A stretch of DNA of 16,907 nt. It comes from Rhizobiaceae bacterium (GTDB lineage: Bacteria; Pseudomonadota; Alphaproteobacteria; Rhizobiales; Rhizobiaceae). The stretch spans positions 1-16,907 of the forward strand of contig JAGWJK010000006.1 in assembly GCA_028865845.1 (NCBI GenBank), written 5' to 3'. Below the pieces are notes generated by a model that did no database searches, was not told the DNA's origin, and saw nothing but the letters and a program-made list of their open reading frames with translations. Numbering within the stretch: the stretch's first letter is position 1; each line of letters starts with the position of its first letter. The translations under genes and the position numbers were made by a program. This document shows positions 11,514 through 12,259 of this stretch, piece after piece.

Positions 11514-11541
11514 TTGACAAAATGCGTAAAATACGTATTTT
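11514..11541 (+). promoter_or_regulatory. Promoter of the toxin-antitoxin operon
   Basis: TTGACA (11514-11519) is a perfect -35 box. TATTTT (11536-11541) is a four-of-six -10 box after a 16-base spacer. The whole spacer and -10 box lie inside the 32-bp palindrome, so a bound repressor would block RNA polymerase. This layout is expected for an autoregulated toxin-antitoxin operon. Confidence 0.6.
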
Positions 11542-11550
11542 ACGCATTTT
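11519..11550. promoter_or_regulatory. Perfect 32-bp palindromic operator
   Basis: Positions 11519-11550 read identically on both strands, with the centre at TACGTA. The half-site is made of two 9-bp units, AAAATGCGT (11519-11527) and AAAATACGT (11528-11536); their mirror images are ACGTATTTT (11533-11541) and ACGCATTTT (11542-11550). It covers the promoter spacer and -10 box and ends 14 bases before the antitoxin ATG. The best reading is the operator for the antitoxin, two dimers being able to bind side by side. As RNA it would form a long A/U-rich hairpin followed by U residues, so it might also help end pntB transcripts. Confidence 0.75.
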
Positions 11551-11564
11551 TTAAGAGGTGTGTC

Positions 11565-11819
11565 ATGGCTGAGGTTTTAAGAGTTTCGGCGACTGATTTT
11601 GCGCGAGGCTTCGCAAAATACCAGGATGAGGCAATTTCCGCGAAAGTGATAGAAATCACCAGTCATGGACGGGTCGTGGGCGGTTACCTCTCGGCGAGCG
11701 AACTTGCGCATTACGAGTTGTTGAAACGCAGGGAACGGGAAGTTCTTGTGGTCGGCGAACTCGATGATGAAACGATCGCCGATATCGAAAATGCTCAATA
11801 TGGCGTTGCGCCCAAGTGA
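11565..11819 (+). CDS. Phd/YefM-type antitoxin of a PemK-like toxin-antitoxin pair
   Basis: This 84-residue protein has the N-terminal DNA-binding layout of the Phd/YefM family: VSATDFARGFAKYQDEA followed by KVIEITSHGRVVGGYLSASE, the usual pattern of helix then a strand with an iT.hGr core. The C-terminal third (from about residue 50) is charged and probably unfolded when free, and should be the toxin-binding segment. AGAGG at 11554-11558 is a good ribosome binding site for ATG 11565. The palindromic operator lies immediately upstream, fitting autoregulation. Its TGA overlaps the GTG start of the toxin frame (GTGA at 11816-11819), so toxin translation would be coupled. The gene itself looks intact, though its toxin partner is broken. 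Confidence 0.85.
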   Translation: MAEVLRVSATDFARGFAKYQDEAISAKVIEITSHGRVVGGYLSASELAHYELLKRREREVLVVGELDDETIADIENAQYGVAPK

Positions 11820-12259
11820 AATATCCAGAACCGCCTGCCGGCCTCGTCATTCGGTATGCGTTTCTTTGGAGCAGCGAATAAGAGCGAAGTCGATATGAAG
11901 CGGCCAAGGATCGCCCCTGCGCAATCGTGCTCGCTTCCAGGATCAAGAATAGCGGTCTCATCCAAACTGTCGTCGTGCCAATTACACATGCGGAACCAGC
12001 TTTGGGTGATCCAGCAGTCTCCATCGAAATTCCAAGGGAAGTTTGTAAGGGACTTGGCCTCGACGACGATAGGCATTGGGTTCGAATTACCGAACTGAAC
12101 CGTTTCATTTGACCTGGCTACGATCTACGGGAACGACCGGATAAGCCTGGCCGGATCGATTATGGTTTTCTGCCTGAGCCATTTTTCGAGACGATTAGGT
12201 CGGCCATCGTGGCGCAAAACAAAGTTCGTAAACTTCGCTTTACGCCACGAGATGAATAG
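11816..12259 (+). pseudogene. PemK/MazF-like toxin gene interrupted by two in-frame stop codons
   Basis: Read from GTG 11816 in a single frame, 147 codons run to TAG 12257-12259, interrupted only by TAA at 11879-11881 (codon 22) and TGA at 12110-12112 (codon 99). No frameshift is needed. The conceptual protein begins VKYPEPPAGLVIRYAFLW, continues with KDRPCAIVLA, TVVVPITHAEP and GDPAVSIEIP, and ends PGRIDYGFLPEPFF. These are the landmarks of the PemK-like toxins paired with this antitoxin type in rhizobia; such toxins cut mRNA. The family usually has Trp before PGYDL, where the TGA stands, so that change is probably TGG to TGA. The gene overlaps the antitoxin stop. The first stop leaves only 21 residues, so an active toxin is unlikely without readthrough. 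The frame is too well kept to be old decay. Confidence 0.8.

Follow-up and report, generated by a model that had tools for sequence, protein, structure and literature searches.

What has become of a toxin-antitoxin module in which the toxin frame is broken by two stop codons and the antitoxin gene is open throughout? The question is raised by a locus in a 16,907-nucleotide stretch of DNA (hereafter, the window; contig JAGWJK010000006.1 of assembly GCA_028865845.1) from a soil-dwelling Rhizobium. An earlier note on this DNA had described a PemK-like toxin gene, recently disarmed, whose antitoxin might be retained as an anti-addiction factor or a repressor; deliberate readthrough of the stops was offered as a less likely reading. 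The features concerned are as follows.

11514..11541, forward strand: putative sigma-70-like promoter, TTGACA-16-TATTTT, overlapping the candidate operator (consensus scan, 10 of 12 matches)
11519..11550, no strand: perfect 32-bp palindrome, candidate operator for the antitoxin (from sequence only)
11565..11819, forward strand: intact antitoxin gene, 84 amino acids, Phd/YefM-like (open reading frame, alignment, and Pfam)
11816..12259, forward strand: broken toxin gene, PemK/MazF-like, 147 codons (translation and alignment; fold from an intact relative)
11879..11881, forward strand: premature stop TAA at toxin codon 22 (translation)
12110..12112, forward strand: premature stop TGA at toxin codon 99 (translation and alignment of relatives)

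The toxin frame (11816-12259) consists of 147 codons and a terminal stop, and the TAA at codon 22 and the TGA at codon 99 are its sole interruptions. No indel separates it from the toxins of R. leucaenae and Rhizobium sp. BK602, each likewise of 147 codons, which bears out the description of the frame in the earlier note. The TGA was said to stand where the family usually has Trp, and Trp is indeed found at this position in all 52 aligned relatives; at both stop places, the codons are sense codons in seven intact relatives. With its frame interrupted and those of its same-site orthologues uninterrupted, the toxin gene of the window qualifies as a pseudogene. An antisense gene at 11656-12108 was taken as spurious because 5 and 6 stops (terminal codon included) occur in its frame in two syntenic relatives. 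A second antisense frame, 11795-12076, is open in both of these relatives.

The PemK-like identity proposed for the toxin holds at the level of predicted fold, whereas the sequence similarity is weak. A middle piece of the window toxin (76 residues) scores 17.1 bits against PF02452 and the R. leucaenae toxin scores 18.8 bits, both under the Pfam cut-off of 23.1. The same model matches all seven intact relatives at E <= 1 (best, 1.1e-4), and the toxin of one relative is annotated as PemK/MazF in its public record. In the predicted structure of an intact relative, the MazF/Kid (PemK) fold is clear, and on the strength of this model the toxin gene of the window belongs to the MazF/PemK-fold type. 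We infer that the intact family is toxic, and the modeled fold suggests that it acts as an RNase. A profile of the seven intact relatives detected no second toxin copy in the host genome at E <= 1e-10 (assembly 82% complete). A PF02452 search of the same genome also returned no match, a weak negative because the model misses the window's own toxin locus there.

The antitoxin gene lies directly upstream of the toxin frame and overlaps it by 4 nucleotides (GTGA), as in type II modules; among nine loci compared, the overlap is GTGA in eight and GTAA in the ninth. The antitoxin matches the Pfam model PhdYeFM_antitox with an E value of 0.0049, under the curated cut-off, and some of its homologues carry PF02604 as a precomputed domain. 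A palindrome at the promoter, here recognized from its letters alone, is likewise expected of a type II module. Each of its arms is 16 bases long; when the window was shuffled 200 times at constant mononucleotide composition, the longest perfect arm was 10. Similar palindromes occur at the same place in several relatives, but they are shorter or imperfect; that of one relative, L065, is nearly perfect, and the BK602 stretch has an insertion there. The earlier statement that antitoxin, promoter, and operator are preserved agrees with the open 84-codon frame, the TTGACA-16-TATTTT match, and the perfect 32-bp repeat, the latter two being candidate elements. Presumably, the antitoxin continues to be produced and to repress its own operon via the palindrome, a putative autoregulation.

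When was the toxin gene broken? The module of the window lies downstream of pntB, as do those of Rhizobium sp. BK602 and R. leucaenae USDA 9039, both of which have an uninterrupted toxin. A third relative, L065, also has an uninterrupted toxin, and the sequence preceding its module can be aligned with the 3' end of pntB. The window toxin shares 74 to 77% identity with the toxins of these three relatives, which are 73.5 to 83% identical among themselves; the antitoxin identities in the same comparison are 86 to 93%. We searched for a second strain of the window's species and found none. Codon models were fitted to 14 taxa, which remained after near-duplicates were dropped from 17 that we had chosen among near relatives whose toxin frame could be read; stops were masked. 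For the toxin, omega is 0.070 on the window branch and 0.097 elsewhere (2dlnL 0.58), and for the antitoxin, it is 0.028 and 0.079, respectively (2dlnL 2.66); these values are rough because dS is about 1 to 3 or not computable, i.e., synonymous sites are near saturation. Thus, no relaxed selection on the toxin was detected on the window branch with these 14 taxa. Adding a final neutral stretch to this branch never improved the fit at the values tried, and a stretch of 5% costs 1.8 lnL units. At 48 sites that are invariant in the 16 other rows of the alignment, the window departs at three (P8, S59, and the TGA), compared with 0 to 3 departures in the intact rows. We read the absence of relaxation in a broken frame as a sign of recency, not of function, and the inactivation therefore looks recent relative to the species split. 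The claim of a recent disarming is thereby supported, both by the uninterrupted orthologues at the same site and by the codon models. A second stop is somewhat unexpected after a loss this recent: at the 5% bound, about 0.28 further nonsense changes are expected, which puts its probability at no more than about one in four.

Damage to the toxin is found beyond the window. An antitoxin-anchored survey covered 51 of 55 distinct antitoxin places in the genus and family (the other four were without a locus). Of these 51 loci, 42 have an uninterrupted toxin, six have an interrupted one, and three have none; a toxin was scored as uninterrupted when a single stop-free tblastn match covered it, and some matches end short of the C terminus. 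Besides the window, the interrupted loci comprise two frameshifts (L064 and L066) and three in-frame stops (L077, L100, and L107). The frameshift of L066, representing R. phaseoli, is near the start of the toxin, and that of L064, representing R. pisi, is at about codon 113; the stop of L107 is at about codon 134. The late lesions of L064 and L107 may leave toxin activity, and single-base indels recorded in public genomes may stem from sequencing error. The antitoxin frames are open at all three loci without a toxin (L091, L103, and L106). By eye, the frame that follows the antitoxin of L091 starts like a family toxin and then departs from it, and a weak 31% toxin match remains at L103 (E 0.004), perhaps a trace of the toxin's start. 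Because it is anchored on antitoxins, this survey is blind to antitoxin loss and biased towards intact antitoxins. A toxin-anchored survey of 59 loci, which are a subset of the toxin places listed and many of which are common to both surveys, revealed an antitoxin match upstream in 58; the exception is a truncated toxin. All 53 uninterrupted toxins in this survey are paired with an antitoxin. Across the module family of the window, antitoxins are better conserved than toxins. At G023:C228:80782-81223, a family toxin is split into two frames, and no antitoxin is listed there.

Within a single species, R. phaseoli, we compared 17 strains, represented by the ATCC 14482 draft and by 16 plasmid records, one of which was deposited under the name R. 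etli CIAT 652. Eleven of them have a damaged toxin frame, the result of five primary lesions and one secondary lesion. Four of the damaged strains have a lesion at codon 77 or earlier. The remaining seven have a single lesion, located at codon 117, 121, or 127; it falls either ahead of or within the predicted C-terminal helix (residues 121 to 140) and is likely, though not certain, to abolish activity. The antitoxin gene is free of indels in 16 of the 17 strains. In R. phaseoli R630 (pRphaR630d; L176), a frameshifted antitoxin accompanies an open toxin, the sole such locus seen. Strain R630 counts against a simple toxin-first rule unless its toxin lacks activity or the base was misread; its state could reflect either a sequencing error or an already harmless toxin allele. 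Among the segregating codons of R. phaseoli, 17 are nonsynonymous and 4 synonymous in the toxin; for the antitoxin, the figures are 5 and 1. These counts do not suggest strong constraint on either gene. Slightly harmful variants inflate nonsynonymous counts within species.

We consider it highly probable that the window holds a case of ordinary toxin-first decay. The module would be a vertically inherited type II module of the chromosomal type, composed of a MazF/PemK-fold toxin and a Phd/YefM-like antitoxin, whose toxin gene was recently knocked out by nonsense mutation. Loss of the toxin would be tolerated and is probably neutral or favored, whereas a cell that lost the antitoxin while its toxin was still active would be harmed; decay would therefore start in the toxin, this asymmetry being the putative selective reason for the order. 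A left-over antitoxin, for which no other task has been shown, would be expected to decay in turn. Because the break looks too recent to have left time for antitoxin decay, the intactness of the antitoxin is no evidence of purposeful retention.

Could the two stops be artifacts, or could they be read through? Error in the sequencing or assembly of a fragmented draft (6.1 Mb, 1324 contigs, and 82% completeness) would leave the toxin really intact, and the undiminished constraint on the toxin is also what a truly intact gene would show. However, both lesions are substitutions, and the frame is conspicuous in the window, with two stops within 147 codons against none within the 4,899 codons of the 14 other gene frames (starts chosen by us), so that the stops do not reflect a generally poor quality. 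The neighboring genes that match open reading frames of R. leucaenae and BK602 in the coding frame are open, and the stops seen outside the toxin in this comparison fall in antisense frames or just upstream of a gene start. Damaged toxins are also present in relatives from other assemblies. We regard an error as very unlikely. Programmed readthrough of both stops, which would yield a low dose of toxin, fits the constraint on the whole frame and the position of the TGA at a Trp site, yet it would require that two different stops both be read through at places where the seven intact relatives have sense codons. The other interrupted loci have no stop at either place. In addition, TGA and TAA are ordinary gene ends in the window, TGA terminating 6 of the 14 frames, including the antitoxin gene. 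The deliberate readthrough envisaged earlier is hardly credible on these grounds, and genetic recoding was rejected because both codons terminate ordinary gene frames of the window.

The alternative that touches the antitoxin is that selection keeps it as an anti-addiction factor, which would neutralize the related toxins of incoming plasmids although its own toxin is gone. Related modules are present on 21 Rhizobium plasmid records, 11 of which have the toxin frame uninterrupted, and protection by the antitoxin is thus possible. The six annotated loci among the Rhizobium plasmid loci viewed (L170, L174, L179, L225, L229, and L230) occupy a site other than the pntB site of the window's clade; on one flank are a small hypothetical gene and a gene for a maltosyltransferase or an alpha-amylase, and the other has a gene annotated as encoding an MBL-fold hydrolase or beta-lactamase. 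The low antitoxin omega on the window branch and the open antitoxin frames at the three loci without a toxin would also suit such a role. Nevertheless, we rejected antitoxin constraint as proof of retention, as the death of the toxin looks too recent for the survival of its partner to mean much. Antitoxin omega is 0.104 on five branches with interrupted toxins and 0.088 on two branches without a toxin, each against 0.095, the latter two being 0.40 and 0.05 singly, and none of these differences is significant; this test, from which seven distant loci (L104-L110) were left out, has low power because the losses are undated. The R. phaseoli antitoxin counts do not suggest strong constraint, either. 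With a recent loss, conservation of antitoxins throughout the family, and an omega no different in toxin-dead lineages (at low power), retention as an anti-addiction factor or repressor, as proposed in the earlier note, is left unproven, and the anti-addiction role appears unlikely. A bolder possibility is that the toxin of this rhizobial family was lost repeatedly and convergently, both inside species and among them, the cell that keeps the antitoxin being protected from plasmids with intact copies, so that the antitoxin is a domesticated immunity gene. We consider this quite improbable, the more so as the R. phaseoli damage is mostly late in the toxin frame; if it were true, megaplasmid traffic would maintain the antitoxin as an immunity gene.

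Under toxin-first decay, the reading that we prefer, the window appears to catch the process near its start, since the same-site orthologues are uninterrupted, and relatives show what appear to be later stages, i.e., a frameshift, a toxin deletion, and a lone antitoxin. Together with the R. phaseoli lesions, this series would make it possible to test directly whether left-over antitoxins are retained for anti-addiction or are fading. The damaged toxins of several relatives are the part worth following.

The window locus is a fresh example of a known phenomenon, the decay of a toxin beside a surviving antitoxin. Among nine papers listed, none has a title that points to toxin decay in Rhizobium. 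Compared with the MazEF and PemIK (Kis-Kid) type II modules, the window's family has the MazF/Kid toxin fold in common, as far as the predicted structure indicates. It differs from them in an antitoxin that resembles Phd/YefM rather than MazE, in a longer toxin (about 147 amino acids) with <=17% identity to MazF-type chains among the matches listed, and in toxin scores under the Pfam cut-off where bits are shown; moreover, the toxin of the window is broken. For Klebsiella pneumoniae, a survey (PMC7192599) reports 2253 orphan antitoxins and describes antitoxins without a valid adjacent toxin as common, offering decay, anti-addiction, and regulatory readings alike. The evidence there is a population survey, whereas ours concerns a single locus with lineage-specific codon models. 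Other reports describe the anti-addiction model and ccdO157 degenerating within E. coli (PMC2654758), a parE pseudogene of Caulobacter that leaves ParD without a mate (PMC7354431), and yacB of Shigella, frameshifted beside its antitoxin (PMC7354431). These are decaying chromosomal modules like that of the window, but they belong to other toxin families. Unlike in these cases, the loss in the window consists of two nonsense changes, and the toxin of its family is damaged in several related species and strains.
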